Position numbers and translations under genes: made by a program | Notes under the pieces: model-generated | Databases searched by the model: none | What the model was told of the DNA's origin: nothing | What the model saw: only the letters and a program-made list of their open reading frames with translations | In this document: piece by piece, positions 14,788 through 23,235 of the stretch | How the letters are laid out: the number at the start of each line of letters is the position of its first letter | Numbering within the stretch: the stretch's first letter is position 1 | Assembly (NCBI RefSeq): GCF_947496075.1 | Contig: NZ_CANMBJ010000002.1 | Span: 496,001-560,000, forward strand | DNA length: 64,000 nucleotides | From: an uncultured Tateyamaria sp. | GTDB taxonomy: Bacteria > Pseudomonadota > Alphaproteobacteria > Rhodobacterales > Rhodobacteraceae | Direction: 5' to 3'

Positions 14788-15741
14788 TTATGGCTGCAGA
14801 GCGTTTACACAGATCGGATCAGTGTTCCCCGCGACACACAAGTCGAGGACAAAAACGCCGTGCTCGATTTCACCCTCAAAGCTGTCGGTGAAGTCGGTGA
14901 CGCGAGTGCCGCCGGCGACAAATTCACCCGATGGCCCACCAATTACACCGGCAAAATCACCGATGTCGCTTGCGTCGCTGATCGGGAAATCCGGGTCGCT
15001 TTCATCTTGCTCAATGTTGCCGCTGAACGTGCCATCGTCGGTCAAAGTGCCATCGACTAAGACGAGGTCCGGTAGATCAATGTCGCCGCCAGCGGTGGTT
15101 GCAAGCCGATTGTAAATCTCCCCCTCAACCGACAGGTCGTTCAGGTCAACGTTCACAAACATCAACCCGCGGATATACGCAGTCTGGCTGGGTGTATCCA
15201 CGCTCGGGTCCACACCGGGCGTCGGGAGTAGGTCAGTAACAGGACCCGCCCCATTCAGACCAGCGGCGTAGTTGCCATAATAGGTAACGTCAAAGCGGCT
15301 TTCCGGTGCCGTAGGGGCCACGTATGCGCCGGTACGTTCAAAGAACGAACCGCCAAAGAAGGTGTTGAACTGCGGCCCGGTCATAACCACGCCTGCCTGA
15401 ACACCATCCCGGCTGGCGACAAAAGCCGTTGCGTGGCGGCCCAGCGGGTCATTCTGACCTGTAAAGGTCTCATATCCATCCACAAAGCTCGTCGCGACGC
15501 GTGTGTATTCGTTCACCACGGGCGTACCGTCTTGGGACAGACCGGTGACGGTCAGCGTATTTGTCGCTGCGTTGAAATTAATAGAGCCCAGATCGCCAGC
15601 GATGGCGTCAGGAACGCCAGTGTCGGTTGGCGGATCGGTTGGCGTGCCGCCACCTCCGTCCGTATCACTCTCTTCTCGAGGGCCATTGCCACATGCCGCC
15701 ACCAGAGCGGTCAGTGCGCACACTGCTACTATCCGTTTCAT
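14788..15741 (-). CDS. TbpB-like surface lipoprotein, probable Slam substrate
   Basis: A 317-residue lipoprotein. The signal peptide ends in the lipobox LVAAC with the acylated Cys at residue 17, followed by a Gly/Asp/Thr/Pro-rich linker (about 18-45) and a beta-rich domain. The C-terminal half holds alternating strands with GGSFFERTGAY, GEIYNRLA, DGTFSGNIEQD and a late GVIGGPSGEFVAGG, the pattern of the TbpB beta-barrel (handle/barrel) domain. Two Cys near the end (DLCVAGNTDPICV) may form a disulfide. The reading frame stays open far upstream over thyX, but the true start is the ATG at 15741. It is directly upstream of the Slam-like gene. Confidence 0.75.
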   Translation of the reverse strand: MKRIVAVCALTALVAACGNGPREESDTDGGGGTPTDPPTDTGVPDAIAGDLGSINFNAATNTLTVTGLSQDGTPVVNEYTRVATSFVDGYETFTGQNDPLGRHATAFVASRDGVQAGVVMTGPQFNTFFGGSFFERTGAYVAPTAPESRFDVTYYGNYAAGLNGAGPVTDLLPTPGVDPSVDTPSQTAYIRGLMFVNVDLNDLSVEGEIYNRLATTAGGDIDLPDLVLVDGTLTDDGTFSGNIEQDESDPDFPISDASDIGDFAGVIGGPSGEFVAGGTRVTDFTDSFEGEIEHGVFVLDLCVAGNTDPICVNALQP

Positions 15742-15948
15742 GCCTGAAAACCTTTGCGGTCTATGTCCTGCCTCTTTTGTGGCAAGAAAGCGCCGTAACC
15801 CCCCAGAAGTCAACGGTTTCGTGGTCGTACTGATTCGCACCGCCCGTGAACCGTTGCCAAAAAACGACCCCGATCTAGCGGTTCTCATCAGCCAATCCAC
15901 AATATAAGGTGTAGGCCTGATAGATTCTGTGGATAAAGGACGCGCCCC

Positions 15949-16854
15949 ATGCCGCTCAGCCCCGAACAGCTTGCCGAAATCGAAGAGCTGCGCAGCCACA
16001 CGCAGCCCACGCTCCGTGCCACCGTCCCGGGGATGGAGGCGCATCTCTACAAAGCCCAGCCTGTGCTCGACCACGGCTTTGTCCGCGTCATCGACTACAT
16101 GGGCGACGACAGCGCCATCTGCCAGGCCGCACGCGTCAGCTATGGCAAGGGCACCAAATCCGTCCAGAATGACGAAGGGCTGATCCGCTACCTCATGCGC
16201 CACTGGCACTCGACGCCCTTCGAGATGTGCGAGATCAAGCTGCACGTCAAACTGCCCGTCTTCGTCGCCCGCCAGTGGATCCGCCACCGCACGGCCAACG
16301 TGAACGAATACTCGGCCCGCTACTCGATCCTCGACCGCGAATTCTACATCCCCGAACCCGACGCGCTTGCCGCCCAATCGGTCGTCAACAACCAGGGCAG
16401 GGGCGAGATGCTGCAGGGCCAAGAAGCCGCCCGCGTCCTCGAAATCCTCAAGGCCGACAGCACCCGCGCCTATGACAATTACGAGGCGATGATCAGTCAG
16501 GAGGGGCAGTCCGGCCTCGCCCGCGAACTCGCCCGCATGAACCTGCCCGCGAACATCTATACCCAATGGTATTGGAAAGTGGACCTGCACAACCTGTTCC
16601 ATTTCCTGCGGCTGCGGGCGGATGCGCACGCGCAATACGAAATCCGCGTTTATGCGGATGCGATCTGCGAGATGGTCAAGGATTGGGTGCCTGCGGCGTA
16701 TAAAGCTTTCGAGGACTATCGCATGGGTGGTGCAACATTAAGCGCTACAGCTCTTGCGTGTATTCAGAGAATGTTGAAAGGTGAAGAGGTAACGCAGGAG
16801 AATTCCGGCATGTCCAAGGGGGAATGGCGGGAGTTTTGTTCTGTAATTGATTAG
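15949..16854 (+). CDS. thyX: FAD-dependent thymidylate synthase
   Basis: A 301-residue ThyX, which makes dTMP from dUMP using methylenetetrahydrofolate and reduced FAD. The diagnostic [15 protein letters not shown] motif lies at about residue 110, preceded by [31 protein letters not shown] near residue 205 is also typical. Base composition drops toward A+T from about 16735 to the stop, so the last about 40 codons resemble the AT-rich gene that follows. That suggests a recombination junction inside the 3' end. AAGGA precedes the ATG. Confidence 0.95.
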
Positions 16855-16870
16855 TAGTAAAGGTTGAGTA

Positions 16871-17932
16871 ATGAGTAGATTGTTGACTTTTGAGGAAGCG
16901 CTCGATGCGAGCGAAGGCCATCCACGCCACTTACTTCTGGGAAATGGTTTTAGTATCGCGTGCAAACCGAAGATTTTCACCTATGGTTCACTGTACAGCA
17001 AAGCGGACTTTAGCCAAAACCCAAAGCTGCCAGAAGTATTTAAGAAACTTGAAACACAGGACTTCGAGCTTGTAATCAATGCTCTTGAGCGCTCCAGTCG
17101 TCTAATACCCATTTACGACGAAGACTCCATCACCGCGTCACAAGAAATGCAGGCAGACGCCAAAGCTCTCAAGAAAATTCTCATTTCTACCGTTACAAAA
17201 AATCATCCAGATGGTCCTTTTGACATTAGCGAAGAGGAATACTTTGCTTGTCGTCAATTTTTAGCGAACTTCATTGGTACAGATAAAGGAAAGGTTTTTA
17301 CGCTTAACTATGATCTTCTGTTGTATTGGACAGTAATGCATACTGAGTTCTCAGATGGCGACTATGTTGAACTCATTGCGCGTGATGGATTTGGTGATGA
17401 CGACCCAGATGTCAAAGAAGACTATGTGGTTTGGCAAAGTGAGGCAGGATCGCGTGCTCGGGCGTCGATTTATTACTTGCACGGCGCCCTCCATCTATTT
17501 GACGATGGTTCTCAATTAAAAAAGTTTACATGGGTGCGTACAGACAAGAGATTGAAAGACCAATCCTGGCAGGCAATAGAGCAGGGCGCTTTACCATTAT
17601 TTGTTGCTGAAGGCACTTCAGAATCAAAGAAAAATAAGATTATGCATAGTGGTTATCTGCATCAAGCATATCGAGCCTTCAAAAGTGCCGTAACGCAAAC
17701 TCGCGCTTCGTTTTTTGTTCACGGGCATTCGTTGGCGGAAAGCGATGATCACTTCTTGAGGCTTCTGGGAGCGGGAAAGTATCCAAGACTCTTTGTCGGA
17801 CTACACGGGGATCCCAGCTCGAGTTCCAATCAAGCAATCGTCAAAAAAGCCCGGGCGATCGCGGATATGAGAAATCGACCTCCTCTGGAGGTGGCGTTTT
17901 ATGATACTGGTACGGCTGCCGTTTGGGGTTAG
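16871..17932 (+). CDS. DUF4917 family SIR2-like protein, candidate defence gene
   Basis: A 353-residue protein. The nucleotide-binding signature LLLGNGFSIA lies near residue 22, the VFTLNYDLLLYW strand near residue 146 and YYLHGALHLF near residue 200. Together these are the landmarks of SIR2-like (Rossmann, NAD-binding) domains in the DUF4917 family. A late FFVHGHSLAESDDHFL fits the same fold. The gene is much more AT-rich than its surroundings (35% G+C in bases 17161-17220 by count) with AAA/AAT/ATT-rich codons, indicating horizontal acquisition. It starts 16 bases after thyX with AAAGG upstream. Many SIR2-like proteins deplete NAD during phage infection; that role here is inference. Confidence 0.72.
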   Translation: MSRLLTFEEALDASEGHPRHLLLGNGFSIACKPKIFTYGSLYSKADFSQNPKLPEVFKKLETQDFELVINALERSSRLIPIYDEDSITASQEMQADAKALKKILISTVTKNHPDGPFDISEEEYFACRQFLANFIGTDKGKVFTLNYDLLLYWTVMHTEFSDGDYVELIARDGFGDDDPDVKEDYVVWQSEAGSRARASIYYLHGALHLFDDGSQLKKFTWVRTDKRLKDQSWQAIEQGALPLFVAEGTSESKKNKIMHSGYLHQAYRAFKSAVTQTRASFFVHGHSLAESDDHFLRLLGAGKYPRLFVGLHGDPSSSSNQAIVKKARAIADMRNRPPLEVAFYDTGTAAVWG

Positions 17933-17956
17933 ACGAACAGGCTTTTTTCTCGGCGG

Positions 17957-17977
17957 TGAACCGAATTCTTCGGTTCA
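17957..17977 (+). terminator. Hairpin 3' of the DUF4917 gene
   Basis: The arms TGAACCGAA (17957-17965) and TTCGGTTCA (17969-17977) pair perfectly with a 3-base loop, 25 bases after the DUF4917 stop. No U-run follows, so it is either a factor-assisted end or an RNA-stabilising hairpin rather than a textbook intrinsic terminator. Confidence 0.45.
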
Positions 17978-18032
17978 GGATGAACATGTAACAGCGCGGA
18001 ATCAACGCCAAAGGCCGCCGTGCCAGCGCCGA

Positions 18033-18081
18033 CCCCGGGGCTCCGCCCGTGATGGCCTCAAACGATCCCCCGGATCGTTTG
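18033..18081. repeat. 49-bp palindrome-containing repeat, copy 1
   Basis: It begins with CCCCGGGGCTCCGCCCGT, then a 10-base variable stretch, then inverted arms AAACGATCC and GGATCGTTT separated by CCC and a final G. Copy 2 at 18249-18297 matches it at every position except within the variable stretch. The structure resembles a dispersed intergenic palindromic repeat. Confidence 0.75.
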
Positions 18082-18248
18082 TCACTGCGTGAATCGGCAA
18101 TCACCCCACTCGGGCCGGCGCTACATGACCACCAACGCACCGCCCCACCAAACTTACTCACACCACAACCATAAACCGCGCCGTATCACCGGTGCTGCGC
18201 CAACCCGCGGTCCGGCGCTGCCGCGGCTCAGCGCCTAATTGAAACGCG

Positions 18249-18297
18249 CCCCGGGGCTCCGCCCGTTCGCAACTCAAACGATCCCCCGGATCGTTTG
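18249..18297. repeat. 49-bp palindrome-containing repeat, copy 2
   Basis: The same layout as copy 1, 216 bases downstream in direct orientation: CCCCGGGGCTCCGCCCGT, a 10-base variable stretch, then AAACGATCC/GGATCGTTT arms around CCC. It ends about 115 bases before the DksA-type gene. Confidence 0.75.
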
Positions 18298-18411
18298 CCG
18301 GGCATTGCCCGGACCGGTGCTCACCCCGCCGAAACCTCGACCAATTGCGCCGCGCATCGCCTCACCGGGGACGGCCTTGCGCCATGGACCCTCCAAAGCC
18401 TACGCTCCCCC

Positions 18412-18732
18412 ATGGACCCGCGCACCCAACTCCACGCCCGCCTCGGAACCCTCGATGCCGAGGATGCAGCAGGCGCACACGCCCAGGCCACCGTGGAACT
18501 TGATCAGCAAGCCGTGGGCCGTCTCTCCCGCATGGACGCCCTCCAGAACCAGGCCATGGCGCAGGCCCAGGCCCGGATGCGCAATGCCGAACGCCAGCGC
18601 ATCCACGCTGCCCTCAAGCGGCTCGATGACGATGAATATGGCTATTGCACTGATTGTGGTGAGCCCGTCGAAGCTAAACGCCTGATGGCGGACCCGACCA
18701 TTCCCCGCTGTCTCGATTGCACGCGCGGTTAG
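18412..18732 (+). CDS. TraR/DksA-type C4 zinc-finger protein
   Basis: A 106-residue protein with a coiled-coil-like helical N-terminal region and a C-terminal four-cysteine zinc finger (CTDCGEP ... PRCLDC, residues about 79-103), the TraR/DksA signature. DksA proteins insert their coiled coil into the RNA polymerase secondary channel and tune initiation with ppGpp. Short versions like this are common in Rhodobacteraceae. I chose the ATG at 18412 (PMDPRTQLH); the upstream extension to 18295 runs into the repeat region and is not protein-like. Confidence 0.82.
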   Translation: MDPRTQLHARLGTLDAEDAAGAHAQATVELDQQAVGRLSRMDALQNQAMAQAQARMRNAERQRIHAALKRLDDDEYGYCTDCGEPVEAKRLMADPTIPRCLDCTRG

Positions 18733-18796
18733 AAGCGGTTTATCCACAGCGCGTCATAAAACTGTCACATGGCCTGAAAGCTGCTATCTTTGGGAT

Positions 18797-19072
18797 ATGT
18801 GGAAATTCATCCCTTTTCTCCTGCTCGGTACACCCCTCGCGGCCAACCCGATAGCCGAGGTGATCTGCGCCCCCACCAACCAGATGCAAGCCAGGCTGAA
18901 ACAGCAATTCGGCACTACGCGCACCGCAACCGGCATGCGCAGTCCCGAAGAGATGATGGAGGTGTGGACGGACAGCCGTGGCGACTGGACCATGGTGGTG
19001 CGGTATGCCAGCGGCACGTCCTGCATCGTGGCCATGGGCGAACACTGGTCCGAGGTGAAAAACCCGGCCTAG
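18797..19072 (+). CDS. Small secreted protein of unknown function
   Basis: A 91-residue protein with an N-terminal signal peptide (FIPFLLLGTPLAANP). The mature part of about 70 residues holds two cysteines (VICAP near residue 24 and SCIVAMG near residue 76) that could form one disulfide, plus a final GEHWSEV. I do not recognise the family. Its TAG stop shares the CTAG with the stop of the convergent gene at 19069. Confidence 0.62.
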   Translation: MWKFIPFLLLGTPLAANPIAEVICAPTNQMQARLKQQFGTTRTATGMRSPEEMMEVWTDSRGDWTMVVRYASGTSCIVAMGEHWSEVKNPA

Positions 19073-19377
19073 GGTGCAGCACGATCCCTCAATTGGGCCA
19101 CCAGCGCGCCGTTGTCCTCTTCCCACATTTTCCATGCCCGATACCCTTCGATCTGCGCCCGGGGTCCGGTGAGGTCACCTGCAAAATGCGCCTTAACCGC
19201 ATGGTAATGGCTCATGCAGCGTGCCCATTCGGTGGGCGACGGGAATTGCGTCTCGGCCGACACTTGGCACGCGTAGTAGAGGGACAGCAGCCGCATCAAT
19301 TCGGTCATCGGGATACCCGCAGGTTGTAGTGACTGTTGCCAGCCTAGCCACAAACCGGCAAATTCCGAGTAAATCAT
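19069..19377 (-). CDS. Hypothetical protein
   Basis: A 102-residue Trp- and Tyr-rich soluble protein if started at the ATG at 19377 (MIYSEFAGLWLG); a shorter start at MTELMRLL is possible. The frame remains open to 19722, but that part is antisense to the secreted-protein gene at 19477 and is not credible. It is convergent with the previous gene, with overlapping stops. Function is unknown and the start is uncertain. Confidence 0.5.
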   Translation of the reverse strand: MIYSEFAGLWLGWQQSLQPAGIPMTELMRLLSLYYACQVSAETQFPSPTEWARCMSHYHAVKAHFAGDLTGPRAQIEGYRAWKMWEEDNGALVAQLRDRAAP

Positions 19378-19476
19378 GCGTGCGGTGGTGTGATCCGCAA
19401 AAAAACTGGACTTGTGATCAGCCAAACGGCATCGTTTGCATAGATTTCGTGGTGTGTTGAAGGAACGAGGGAAGAT

Positions 19477-19764
19477 ATGCCATTCACCAAAGTGATGACA
19501 GCCGCTGCGGCCTTTGTGCTTCTCGGGGCAGGGGCGGCTCTGGCGCAGGATCAAGCCGGCCCCAAGATTTACGCCTTTCACAGCCAGCACAATTACTGCC
19601 CAACCGGTCTGCAACCCGTGACAATCGATGGCACCATCTGCTGTGGCCGTCCAAATCAGGACATCAGCTACCAACAGGCACTGGCCCACGCAGCGGCCAA
19701 GAAACGGCATCGCGTCCGTCAAAGCAGCTGCCCGGTTGGCACCAAGGGCTGCACGTTCAACTGA
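19477..19764 (+). CDS. Small secreted Cys-containing protein
   Basis: A 95-residue protein with a clear signal peptide (VMTAAAAFVLLGAGAALAQ). The mature peptide has five cysteines (YCPTG, ICCGR, SSCPVG, KGCTF) and a basic KKRHR patch. The Cys spacing suggests a disulfide-stabilised or metal-binding fold. It is followed by a strong terminator shared with cspA. The family is not recognised. Confidence 0.65.
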   Translation: MPFTKVMTAAAAFVLLGAGAALAQDQAGPKIYAFHSQHNYCPTGLQPVTIDGTICCGRPNQDISYQQALAHAAAKKRHRVRQSSCPVGTKGCTFN

Positions 19765-19784
19765 TCACCGCGTACATCAATGCA

Positions 19785-19813
19785 AGCGGCGCAGGATAGG
19801 CTCGTGCGCCGCT
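19785..19813. terminator. Bidirectional terminator between the secreted-protein gene and cspA
   Basis: A perfect 9-bp stem, AGCGGCGCA (19785-19793) with TGCGCCGCT (19805-19813) and an 11-base loop, lies between two convergent genes. A short T-rich tail follows on the plus strand. Confidence 0.65.
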
Positions 19814-19833
19814 TTGTCGTGTGTATCAGGGGG

Positions 19834-20040
19834 TCAGAGCAGTTTCAGCTCGCCAGCCATCTGGCGCCCATCCCTGCCTTCCAGCAGTTCGAAACTGACT
19901 TTTTGGTTGTCGGCCAGCCCGGTAAGCCCGGACCGTTCGACGGCTGAAATATGTACAAAAACGTCTTTGCCGCCCTCATCCGGAGCAATAAATCCGTAGC
20001 CTTTCGTGGTGTTGAACCACTTCACGGTGCCAGTTGGCAT
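19834..20040 (-). CDS. cspA: Cold-shock protein CspA family
   Basis: A 68-residue single cold-shock domain, an OB-fold RNA chaperone. Both RNA-binding motifs are visible: RNP1 as KGYGFIAPD and RNP2 as DVFVHISAVE, after GTVKWFN. A strong AGGAGG-type site (AGGAGGCACGGGAAC) precedes the ATG. It is usually induced by cold or stationary phase; no regulatory element was resolved in the leader. Confidence 0.93.
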   Translation of the reverse strand: MPTGTVKWFNTTKGYGFIAPDEGGKDVFVHISAVERSGLTGLADNQKVSFELLEGRDGRQMAGELKLL

Positions 20041-20230
20041 GTTCCCGTGCCTCCTTTACCTTGCAGTCTCCCCCAAACGCGGAACATCGTGCCAGGGGCC
20101 GTCATCGCGCCAGCAATATCCAGACGCTGCCGCCACTTAATGAGATTGCACTTATGGCGCGAAATTCAAGGTTGAGGGGTGTAATCCGCGCGGGTTGCCG
20201 CTTAATTCAACGCAAAGGGCAGAGGTGGAT

Positions 20231-20548
20231 ATGGAAATATACGGATTGAAAACATGCGACACCTGTCGCAAGGTGATCAAGGCGCTTCCAGAGGCGCGTT
20301 TTGTGGACGTGCGGGCCGATGGCGTACCGACCGATGTGATGGCTGCGGCCTTCGCCACGTTTGGCGACAAGTTGGTGAATACGCGGTCCACCACATGGCG
20401 CGGTCTGTCGGATGCTGAACGCCAGGGTACGCCGCAAGACTTGCTTGGAGCACACCCTACATTGATGAAACGGCCGTTGGTCGCTGATGGCGACACTCTG
20501 CACCTTGGATGGACCAAAGATGTGCAGGCGGCGCTCGGCGTGGCCTAG
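20231..20548 (+). CDS. ArsC/Spx-family (YffB-like) thioredoxin-fold protein
   Basis: A 105-residue protein of the arsenate-reductase-like Spx/YffB group. It starts MEIYGLKTCDTCRKV, with the family CxxC at residues 9-12, and has a conserved basic RPLV segment (MKRPLVADGD) near residue 80. YffB-type proteins are glutathione-dependent reductases of uncertain substrate; true arsenate reduction is not implied. I chose the ATG at 20231 because AGAGGTGG lies just upstream; the longer frame from 20195 adds an unconvincing N-terminus. It is convergent with the DoxX gene, overlapping by 4 bases. Confidence 0.82.
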   Translation: MEIYGLKTCDTCRKVIKALPEARFVDVRADGVPTDVMAAAFATFGDKLVNTRSTTWRGLSDAERQGTPQDLLGAHPTLMKRPLVADGDTLHLGWTKDVQAALGVA

Positions 20549-21108
20549 GCTTCGGCAAGCGCAGGTTTCGGGGCAAGGGCGCGGTCAAAGGACAGCGGCC
20601 CGGCCCCCTTGACCACCAGCACCAGCAGCAGGAACACCCACAATGAACGCTGGTCCATGATCAGGCTGTTTGATGGCGCATCGAACCACGCCCCCAAAAC
20701 CAGCCCGTCGCCCCATTTGTCATGGCCATTCAGGTCGGTCAGCGATTGCACCACGATGAAGCCAATCATCCCAAGCGACGCGAGGCGCGTCAGCAAACCC
20801 GCGATGATCAGCAAGGGCAATACGAATTCTGCAACCGTGCCTGCCGTGACCACAGCCCAGTGATACAGGCTCAGCTGGGTCACGTCGTAGCCCACATTCT
20901 CCATTACCTTGGGAAAGATCTGTGCATAGGCGCCCAGCGAAGGCTGGAAGATGCCAAAGATCCCGTCGCCCAGTTTTGTCATCCCGGAGACCCAGAAATA
21001 CACAGCAAGCACTGCGGCAAACAGGAAACGGGCCAACGTCGGCAGCAACCAGTCAGCGCGTTCAAGCGGGCCAAAGATCGCAGTATGTAGACGGGAAAGG
21101 GCGGTCAT
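20545..21108 (-). CDS. DoxX-family membrane protein of the bufferin operon
   Basis: A 187-residue membrane protein with four hydrophobic segments (for example FLFAAVLAVYFWVSG and FVLPLLIIAGLLT), matching the DoxX family. It is the last gene of a four-gene operon, 4 bases after bufC. Operons of DUF2282, DUF692, DUF2063 and DoxX genes are known as bufferin or gold-induced (gig) operons, where the DoxX protein is the membrane component of unclear role, perhaps redox or transport. Confidence 0.85.
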   Translation of the reverse strand: MTALSRLHTAIFGPLERADWLLPTLARFLFAAVLAVYFWVSGMTKLGDGIFGIFQPSLGAYAQIFPKVMENVGYDVTQLSLYHWAVVTAGTVAEFVLPLLIIAGLLTRLASLGMIGFIVVQSLTDLNGHDKWGDGLVLGAWFDAPSNSLIMDQRSLWVFLLLVLVVKGAGPLSFDRALAPKPALAEA

Positions 21109-21112
21109 TGGG

Positions 21113-21871
21113 TCATTCCTTTGGGGTGATCATGTCAGTAAGGGCGTTGTGCTGGATCAGAAGGGTCAGCAGCGGGCCAAGGTCGAATTCGGGGTCCATT
21201 TCCGTGGCCGCATCTACGGCCTCTTCCAATGTGGTATTTGCACGGATGGCACTCAGCCATGCGAATTGCGCGTCCGAGATAGCATGGCGTTCCGGGTCGA
21301 ATTCCGTGCGGGTCACCAATACAGACTGGGCAATCCCGCGCGGCTTCTGTGCGCCGTCTTCCATATTGTAGCGCCAGATATCAAGGATCGGCCAGCGGGA
21401 CGACAACACCTGCACGGCTGGGGCCAGCCTAAGGCGGGTGCGCATCAAGACATCGGGGGCGATTGCCCCCAGTCGGGCCGCGTCCAGCGGTGTACTGTCC
21501 GCCGCGTGATAGGATTGGCGCACCGCCAACTCCAATCTTGCGACATCCGAAAGATACCCGATATGGGCCAGCGGCTCGAACCTGTCGAGAAACGCAGGCA
21601 ACACATCTCCATAGTACATCATCAGCGGGGACGCAGGCGGATGTGCACGCGCAAACAGACGGGCCAGCTGGTCAAAATTCTGATCGCCCACCAGCTTCAC
21701 CAGAACCGGAAAACCAGTGCGCATTGCATCGATCAGGGCGACCGTCACGTTGTTGCGATACACCGAAAAGCGGCGGGTCGTTGGGCGCCCATCTCCGTCA
21801 GTCAGGCCATCTGGCACCGGACGGTCCGGATCAAGGATGGCCGCGCGAAAGTCGGTTTGCGAGGATGCCAT
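21113..21871 (-). CDS. bufC: BufC-like (DUF2063) partner of the DUF692 enzyme
   Basis: A 252-residue protein whose N-terminal half carries the DUF2063/HvfC-BufC landmarks: RFSVYRNNV near residue 33, FPVLVKLVGD near residue 50, LARLFARAHPP, and DVARLELAVRQSYHAAD. It is thought to recruit the precursor peptide to the DUF692 enzyme. The ATG at 21871 (MASSQTDF) sits 4 bases after the bufB stop; the longer frame to 22045 runs back into bufB and is spurious. Confidence 0.87.
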   Translation of the reverse strand: MASSQTDFRAAILDPDRPVPDGLTDGDGRPTTRRFSVYRNNVTVALIDAMRTGFPVLVKLVGDQNFDQLARLFARAHPPASPLMMYYGDVLPAFLDRFEPLAHIGYLSDVARLELAVRQSYHAADSTPLDAARLGAIAPDVLMRTRLRLAPAVQVLSSRWPILDIWRYNMEDGAQKPRGIAQSVLVTRTEFDPERHAISDAQFAWLSAIRANTTLEEAVDAATEMDPEFDLGPLLTLLIQHNALTDMITPKE

Positions 21872-21875
21872 GGCG

Positions 21876-22736
21876 CTACCCGGCGTTGATCGTGGCCAGC
21901 GCGGCCGCGGCACGGTCGGCTTCGGCGCGCAGGATGGGCCATTCTGGCACGTCATTGTCCCATTCAACAAGAACAGGGGCAGGACCCGTGCCTGACAGTG
22001 CATGATCCAGCAGGGCCCAAACAGGCTCTGCGGCCTCGCGCCCATGACTGTCGATCAACAGTGGCGCGCCATGATCATCCTCGTCTTCGTCATGGCCGCC
22101 AATATGGATTTCGCCGGCAGCTGACAGGGGATAGGCATCCAGATATGACTGCGGCGTGTAACCCAGATTGGTGGCCGAGATGAACACGTTGTTCACATCC
22201 AGCAGCAGGCCACAGCCTGTGCGGCGCACCAGTTCAGCAAGGAAATCCGTCTCGGACCACGTGCTTTCGGCAAAGGCAAGATAGCTCGACGGATTCTCAA
22301 GCAGCATCCGGCGGCCCAGTGCCTCTTGCACCTCGTCGATGTGATCCGCAACGCGGGTCAGGGTCGCGTCGGTATAGGGCAGGGGCAGCAGGTCATCCAG
22401 AAACTCGGCACCATGGGTGGACCACGCCAGATGCTCGGAAAAGCTGGCGGGTTCCAGCCAGCCGACAAGATGTTTCAAACGGGCAAGGTGATCCGGATCA
22501 AGGCGGCCTTCGCCACCGATCGACAGACCCACGCCATGCACAGAGATAGCAAAGTCATCACGTAGTGCGCGCAATTGAGCATGTGGGCGTCCACCGTCGC
22601 CCATGTAGTTTTCTGCGTGCACTTCGAGCCACTTGACGGGGCCGGGGGCGGTGCGCAGTTCGGTGAAATGCTGGGCTTTGTAGCCAACGCCGGGGGCGGA
22701 TGGCAGGCGAGGCGGTGTCAATGTCGCATCCAGCAT
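21876..22736 (-). CDS. bufB: BufB-like multinuclear iron-dependent oxidative enzyme (DUF692, MNIO)
   Basis: A 286-residue TIM-barrel enzyme of the DUF692/MNIO family, which uses two or three iron ions to modify Cys residues in precursor peptides. Seen are GVGYKAQHF at the start, [14 protein letters not shown], the metal-ligand segments [51 protein letters not shown] and [16 protein letters not shown] lies 7 bases before the ATG at 22736. It is separated from bufA by 76 bases containing a strong hairpin and is tightly followed by bufC. Confidence 0.9.
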
Positions 22737-22770
22737 GTCTGAGCCTCCAGAACGTCGTTGGAAACAGATG

Positions 22771-22794
22771 CGCCGGACCTGTTTAGGTCCGGCG
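22771..22794 (-). promoter_or_regulatory. Intercistronic hairpin between bufA and bufB
   Basis: A perfect 10-bp stem, CGCCGGACCT (22771-22780) with AGGTCCGGCG (22785-22794) and a 4-base loop, lies in the bufA-bufB gap with no U-run. It probably acts as a partial terminator or 3'-end stabiliser that lets the small precursor be made in excess over its modifying enzymes. Confidence 0.6.
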
Positions 22795-22812
22795 AAGGCG
22801 TGTGACGTCGCC

Positions 22813-23118
22813 TTATGCGGGCAGGTCGCGGCTGAGTTCTTCCAGCGAACCTTGACGCGGTGTGCCGTCGGCCAGTGCGGGCAGCTCGATTTCGGCACAT
22901 GTGCCTGCGTCAACAAGTGTCCAGGCGTTGCCCTGGTAATCTACAGTCGACGTGCCGGCGCAGGTGGTTCCAGCGCCTGCGGCACAGTCATTTTCGCCAG
23001 CCAGCGAAATGCCATAGCATTTCTCTTTGCCTGCAGCGGATGCAGTGGTTGTGGAATGTGCGGTCATTGCGGCAGCAACTGCGCCAACAATCGCAACGGA
23101 TTTCATCGTCTTCGACAT
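22813..23118 (-). CDS. bufA1: BufA1-like bufferin precursor (DUF2282)
   Basis: A 101-residue exported precursor. The signal peptide runs to about residue 29 ([14 protein letters not shown] ... ASAAG). The mature peptide has four cysteines at residues 34, 45, 53 and 74, in the DUF2282 contexts [18 protein letters not shown] and GTC. In characterised bufferins the MNIO enzyme converts Cys residues to thiooxazole rings that chelate copper. The ATG at 23118 has AAGGGA upstream; the frame could extend to a TTG at 23124. It is first gene of the operon, so the promoter lies in 23119-23235. Confidence 0.87.
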
Positions 23119-23235
23119 CTTCAACGTCCCTTTCGGATATCGGTTACAGTACGGTCGTGAGCCTTACATAGGTCGGCTTGGATGGAAGTTACCACTCACG
23201 AGCCGGTGTGTCACAGAGCCGTTATCACTTGTTAG

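Follow-up and report, generated by a model that had tools for sequence, protein, structure and literature searches.

A slot behind thyX in Rhodobacteraceae is repeatedly filled with short AT-rich genes and holds a candidate SIR2-fold defence gene in an uncultured Tateyamaria

The window, that is, the whole stretch of DNA analysed here, comprises 64,000 nucleotides of contig NZ_CANMBJ010000002.1 from an uncultured Tateyamaria sp. (assembly GCF_947496075.1), and the present work concerns the short segment that lies directly behind thyX, the gene of the flavin-dependent thymidylate synthase (15949-16854, plus strand; Pfam Thy1, E 7.2e-58). In Rhodobacteraceae the slot downstream of thyX is repeatedly filled with different short AT-rich genes, and in this genome, where thyX forms its left flank, the occupant is a gene of the DUF4917/PDC-S21 family (16871-17932, plus strand) that encodes a protein of 353 aa, probably of the SIR2 fold. 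Taken jointly, the evidence makes it probable that an effector of the SIR2 NADase type sits in a one-gene defence slot whose content is exchanged through its flanks. The DUF4917 gene has a G+C content of 45.5% against 60.2% for the window, and among 630 one-kilobase intervals of the 64 kb the one with the lowest G+C starts at 16701. A preliminary description had reported this open reading frame (ORF), its AT-richness (35% G+C in 17161-17220) and a composition shift starting within the 3' end of thyX, all of which were recovered here, the shift falling between about 16600 and 16800 at the resolution of the scan.

The comparison set beforehand was run across the genus, and other inserts were indeed found at the same place in related species: 17 of 20 genus genomes carry an AT-rich occupant ORF after thyX, two (G008 and G017) look empty, and G019 has no such ORF. 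A thyX match was obtained in 76 of the 101 genomes searched. Ranking 588 matches by thyX similarity and taking the best 80 gave the named loci, which are uneven across the family; Tateyamaria omphalii KCTC 12333, with 99% thyX protein identity, is the named relative nearest to this genome at that gene. A fall in G+C of at least 0.08 over the 600 bp after thyX was measured at 53 of 94 Rhodobacteraceae loci (101 minus two known duplicates and five with less than 900 bp after thyX), compared with 28 of 577 control ends, taken from long ORFs elsewhere in the same loci; the corresponding Fisher value of 2.6e-32 is nominal, since the loci are related. A looser island measure gave 54 of 94 loci and 71 of 577 control ends. 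The islands of the 53 occupied loci are 250-2100 bp long, with 3 kb ahead examined, and by record title the occupied sites include Sulfitobacter, Yoonia, Roseovarius, Octadecabacter, Pelagimonas, Rhodovulum, Silicimonas, Pseudorhodobacter, Maritimibacter and Sinisalibacter. In other alphaproteobacterial families, represented by 20 of the 23 class genomes with thyX, the drop was seen in none of the 20 loci, 10 of which have a thyX G+C below 50%, so that the drop is harder to reach there. The titles and abstract openings returned by a literature search held no description of a thyX slot.

The cargo of the slot is diverse, as 57 cargo proteins fall into 45 clusters at E 1e-3. Some examples of genus occupants are a DUF4062 protein, a PDC-M53A/B pair, a TIR-effector-like protein, a Hypoth_Ymh pair, an FRG protein, a SLATT-like protein and an AAA ATPase. 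In other genera 38 ORFs were covered, 20 of them scanned singly (the first in locus order) and the other 18 by tally, and their Pfam matches include one BglII endonuclease, one MT-A70, two reverse transcriptases, two CAP12/PCTIR TIR proteins, two AAA_15 and one each of AIPR, SieB, Abi_C, HSDR_N and HEPN, while the PADLOC tally of the same ORFs includes AbiP2 and GajA models. PADLOC matches, counted at E 0.001 (the genus scans having been run at 0.01, with two ORFs scanned at two genus loci), were obtained at 8 of 17 genus occupant loci, the one in G013 being a weak match to a methyltransferase model, and at 5 of 20 non-genus loci, that of L097 being weak. The total of 13 of 37 occupant loci (15 of 39 ORFs) compares with at most 6 of 100 control ORFs (Fisher p 5e-5); the controls were a random draw from 182 ORFs in the same loci, each 150 aa or longer, and the cargo ORFs could be as short as 90 aa. 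Judged by these profile matches, a substantial share of the slot occupants is defence-like, and the same flanks enclose different predicted defence content among relatives. Two adjacent ORFs were also observed in the slot of Sinisalibacter aestuarii (L135, 6966-8379); they may represent a restriction-modification pair in 1.5 kb, MT-A70 plus BglII, by an assignment made by eye.

The 24 occupant loci of 37 that have no PADLOC match lend themselves to a broader explanation, namely that the cargo belongs to a general accessory pool favoured by thyX expression, with defence as one of several roles. Members of a four-member family (G005, G010) are among the unmatched occupants, as is a small, apparently membrane-bound family that recurs in the slots L087, L088, L099 and L101, from four named genera, and that is a candidate for an undescribed defence protein. 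On the other hand, the annotated cargo is strongly defence-like, from BglII, MT-A70, the reverse transcriptases with AbiP2 and the CAP12/PCTIR TIR proteins to AIPR, SieB, Abi_C and HSDR_N, and PADLOC cannot include families that are still undescribed. A general pool is thus a possible explanation that we hold to be less likely than a defence slot.

The DUF4917 protein itself matches Pfam DUF4917 at E 3.7e-65 over residues 21-352 of 353, and no other domain was found above the cut-off in a Pfam scan of the protein. It also matches PDC-S21, a candidate defence family of PADLOC, at E 6e-115 (residues 1-352, profile positions 1-334 of 336). The landmarks LLLGNGFS, FTLNYD and LHGALHLF, on which the SIR2-like assignment in the preliminary description was based, are present and largely conserved in homologues, and the fold prediction likewise came out SIR2-like. 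The window protein and 25 homologues from viral contigs were used to build an AlphaFold2 model, which reached a pLDDT of 87.1 and a pTM of 0.86, and Foldseek returned 41 PDB matches at E <= 0.001, with defence SIR2 proteins at the top. SIR2 of SIR2-HerA/Nezha gave the best matches (E 2.6e-11; 13-17% identity, and a TM-score by model length that is mostly 0.54-0.57), followed by PsSIR2, ThsA (3.4e-4), DSR2 and sirtuins. In sequence, similarity to solved SIR2 structures is marginal, the best E being 0.07. Within 26 sequences N146 is at least 90% conserved and Y147, D148 and H204 are invariant. Catalytic residues given in the available part of PMC11263360 are N133/Y134/D135/H171 for DSR2 and N112/Y113/D114/H152 for ThsA, and N146-Y147-D148 and H204 were mapped to these by motif context and by a weak profile alignment to 8j4u (E 0.07), which makes them the likely catalytic residues. 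The DUF4917 product is therefore probably a SIR2-fold protein, for which destruction of NAD is predicted.

DUF4917 is rare at every level searched. It was found in 2 of 20 genus genomes, in 3 of 295 family genomes by protein search, and in 7 of 385 class genomes, two of these as weak partial matches, each count including this genome; of the genus genomes only this one has it behind thyX, and the gene is not fixed at this place, in line with the preliminary description. Homologues occur on 34 plasmid records and, by profile search, in 31 viral contigs; a viral search with a single sequence found no homologue, and none was present in the phage records searched. The expected association with defence was also observed, not only through PDC-S21 but also in that four of seven chromosomal homologue loci lie within or beside defence genes: hsdS and hsdR in one, hsdS and hsdM in another, hsdS followed by GmrSD in a third, and a TIR gene with an HTH-peptidase gene in the fourth. 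At the three other loci, the scanned neighbour is a sigma factor in one case, has no Pfam match in the second, and there is no scanned neighbour in the third. Two of the four plasmid regions opened are type I restriction loci.

These neighbourhoods suggest another explanation, in which DUF4917 guards type I restriction, causing NAD loss when phages inhibit it, and the copy in the slot has split from such an operon. Homologues do lie inside hsd operons, and hsdR- and hsdM-type genes are found elsewhere on contig C1 of this genome. Nevertheless, DUF4917 is unlinked to restriction genes in this genome, one homologue stands beside a TIR gene and others have no restriction gene among the neighbours scanned. 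Moreover, type I systems are common, being found in 9 of 14 control genomes in each of the hsdR and hsdM searches. We regard a guarding role as somewhat doubtful.

The edges of the insert were defined by comparison with the sibling genome G012. Homology breaks at 16836, five codons before the thyX stop, and returns at 17993; at the thyX end only the last five codons and the stop are without sibling homology, and the variable cargo segment of about 1.16 kb is the homology gap at 16837-17992. The thyX tail (16735-16836, plus strand) is AT-shifted yet native, as it is homologous to relatives up to 16836: its identity to two related genomes with other cargo is 98% (98 nt) and 100% (102 nt), and a 10-residue peptide of the tail is kept in 20 of 20 genus members. 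Replacement of the thyX C-terminus as a block, which the preliminary description had proposed, does not agree with this conservation. On the right, the cargo abuts a conserved hairpin-forming sequence (17993-18031, plus strand), which is present within 3 mismatches in 14 of 20 genus genomes; in the eleven other genus genomes in which it was found adjoining the slot, the sequence to the left of this hairpin was seen by eye to vary between genomes. The paired palindromic repeats previously taken as the right end of the insert lie beyond this edge. They consist of a 49-nt repeat with a 23-nt palindrome (18033-18081, plus strand) and a second copy of 88% identity (18249-18297, plus strand), and they are assigned to the flank because G002, G003 and G010, all with different cargo, have them too. 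The hairpin of 17993-18031 was in addition observed to have dispersed palindromic relatives within the genus, with which it forms a small family (G012:C3:174594, G005:C1:959356, G006:C1:863534).

The junction with thyX shows a recurrent arrangement. For 46 first cargo ORFs on the plus strand, start codon and thyX stop overlap by 4 nt in 18 cases, and in 30 a start falls within -33 to +20; the cargo is reversed in G003, G009 and G012. Since cargo starts overlap or adjoin the thyX stop in many species, the layout suggests that the cargo is expressed together with thyX. The end of thyX is also G-rich and C-poor in occupied sites, where a G4-like motif occurs in 20 of 53 loci, compared with 2 of 41 unoccupied ones, and GGG makes up 60% of 155 glycine codons in the thyX tail of occupied loci, 36% of 87 in that of unoccupied ones and 21% in the gene body. 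In occupied pairs with less than 90% protein identity, synonymous identity is 0.34-0.38 over codons 255-284 and 0.52-0.60 over the last 20 codons, compared with 0.35 over the last 20 codons of unoccupied pairs; through much of the gene body, too, the values of the occupied pairs are somewhat raised. The G-rich end may be a ribosome-binding sequence for a coupled start, a recombination signal, or both.

The G-rich motif common to occupied thyX ends and their raised synonymous identity could be expected if a site-specific mobile element, integrase-borne or Tn7-like, targeted the thyX 3' end and left the cargo as decayed remains, and the sharp edges of the cargo, both towards the end of thyX and towards the hairpin, are in line with such an element. 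The preliminary description had proposed the thyX 3' end as a landing site. A dedicated landing mechanism was not supported: Pfam scans of 20 further genus cargo ORFs and of 38 from other genera contained no recombinase family, no direct repeat of at least 14 bp flanks 16837-17992, and no measured AT-rich island exceeds 2.1 kb within the 3 kb examined. The right-edge hairpin was considered as a dedicated attachment site and rejected, because the other copies examined (L072, L076, L077 and L057) have no AT-rich neighbour. A mobile element is accordingly an unlikely source of the cargo, and the balance leans towards exchange through homologous flanks. Finally, an old, vertically inherited region of biased composition would fit the frequency of AT-rich DNA at this place across the family, but is highly improbable, given that DUF4917 stands here in 1 of 20 genus genomes and that a sibling with 99% thyX identity carries an unrelated reverse-oriented ORF in the slot.

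Exchange through the flanks of a defence slot, the explanation preferred here, has a precedent in hotspots without mobile elements, for which recombination at flanking core genes is reported in the accessible part of Oliveira 2017 (PMC5635113). Between G000 and G002, the 5' half of thyX is 97% identical and its middle 82%, while identity is 102 of 102 bases in the tail, 91% at the right edge and 77% beyond; of 171 pairs from 19 genus genomes, this is the one in which the tail exceeds the middle most in identity. The pattern fits recombination through the flanks, as modest evidence, because the thyX middle is hypervariable in all non-sibling pairs shown. In those pairs, thyX nucleotides 430-600 were observed to fall to about 62-68% identity at the lowest, compared with up to 97% over much of the first 400 nt. 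As for a vehicle, the gene transfer agent (GTA) of R. capsulatus packages about 4.4 kb, according to the accessible text of PMC6209664, and such a packet would leave room for a cargo of up to about 2 kb and two arms. Of the 20 genus genomes, 18 carry the GTA_TIM gene, that analysed here among them. The distribution of this marker does not single out gene transfer agents as the cause; as the exchange vehicle they are plausible and unproven.

Put together, the proposed mechanism would work as follows. The SIR2-fold effector would destroy NAD+ in infected cells and thereby stop the spread of phage. Its gene would occupy a slot bounded on one side by the thyX stop and on the other by a hairpin-rich flank, with cspA, arsC and doxX beyond it; the slot would be filled repeatedly with different short AT-rich genes that may often be expressed with thyX. 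The cargo would be swapped by homologous recombination in the flanks, with the 4-kb packets of gene transfer agents as a putative vehicle. The fullest version, a standing one-gene immune slot in which GTA packets swap plug-in defence modules between species and the modules are read out with thyX, is a tentative proposal that goes beyond what we consider probable.

Several points weigh against a defence slot exchanged in this manner. In the portions of the literature covered by the search, no function was described for DUF4917 or PDC-S21; the name DUF4917 appears in one paper, and neither a phage assay nor a NAD assay of it came to light. In this genome the protein has no separate sensor domain and no adjacent partner, and its gene starts 17 nt past the thyX stop, so that tight coupling is not evident here; the count of 4-nt overlaps stands without a background rate. 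The occupants without a PADLOC match indicate that the slot may not serve defence only. The recombination evidence comes mainly from one genome pair, of which G002 is 97% identical to G000 in the thyX 5' half as well, and the hypervariable middle makes the mosaic contrast general in the genus. Lastly, the occupied genome G009 has no GTA_TIM gene, and the presence of this gene in 47 of 48 other genomes, with or without inserts, does not discriminate between them.

Some features are shared with known systems. SIR2-HerA (Nezha), DSR2 and ThsA resemble the modelled DUF4917 protein in the SIR2 fold and in the N-Y-D and H residues. SIR2-HerA differs in that a HerA ATPase gene adjoins SIR2, whereas the neighbours here are thyX and a DksA/TraR-type gene, HerA having been sought at the locus only. 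Thoeris, with its SLOG domain and TIR partner, and DSR2, with its large C-terminal sensor, have parts that the DUF4917 protein lacks. PDC-S21 and Pfam DUF4917 both match it over nearly the full length and represent the same family, a computational candidate. With regard to the slot, the hotspot islands of Pseudomonas aeruginosa and E. coli are reportedly many kb long and hold multi-gene systems; the thyX slot, in contrast, carries one gene, sometimes two to four. As far as the accessible text of PMC10250203 and PMC10121019 goes, these core hotspots resemble the slot in combining a fixed place with changing defence content. The hotspots of Oliveira 2017, in the part cited above, are similar in rapid turnover, in flanking core genes and in that no mobile-element genes are seen; unlike them, the slot spans many genera, with cargo of 1-2 kb that is mostly thyX-directed and often overlaps its stop.

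Beyond the repeats, the right flank contains a DksA/TraR-type zinc-finger gene (18441-18732, plus strand; zf-dskA_traR, E 8.1e-9), the start of which is uncertain, the ORF being listed as 18295-18732. A gene of this type forms the right flank in some genus members, and G012, G010 and G013 have it too. It is followed by a cspA-like gene (19834-20040, minus strand), an arsC-like gene (20195-20548) and a doxX-like gene (20545-21108); cspA, arsC and doxX, all named by eye, are often found 3' of the slot and represent a recurrent right anchor across genera. No Rfam element matched in 15000-20500 at the gathering threshold. Further to the right, a candidate for a small Cys-containing precursor was observed at 22813-23124, within 21113-23124 on the minus strand and beside genes that by eye are peptide-modification-like. 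We take this cluster to resemble a DUF692/DUF2063 peptide-modification operon.

The thyX slot is apparently a miniature, mobile-element-free defence hotspot that recurs across the family, as judged from the genomes compared. The 3' end of thyX would thus provide an address across many genera that is easy to read when searching for new small anti-phage genes, all the more as most of the scanned occupants have no known function. It may also serve as a case of immune-gene movement without integrases, and DUF4917 becomes a candidate family of stand-alone SIR2 effectors with clear predicted catalytic residues. If the proposed coupling is true, defence modules would be read out in these bacteria jointly with a pathway that phages require, the synthesis of thymidylate.

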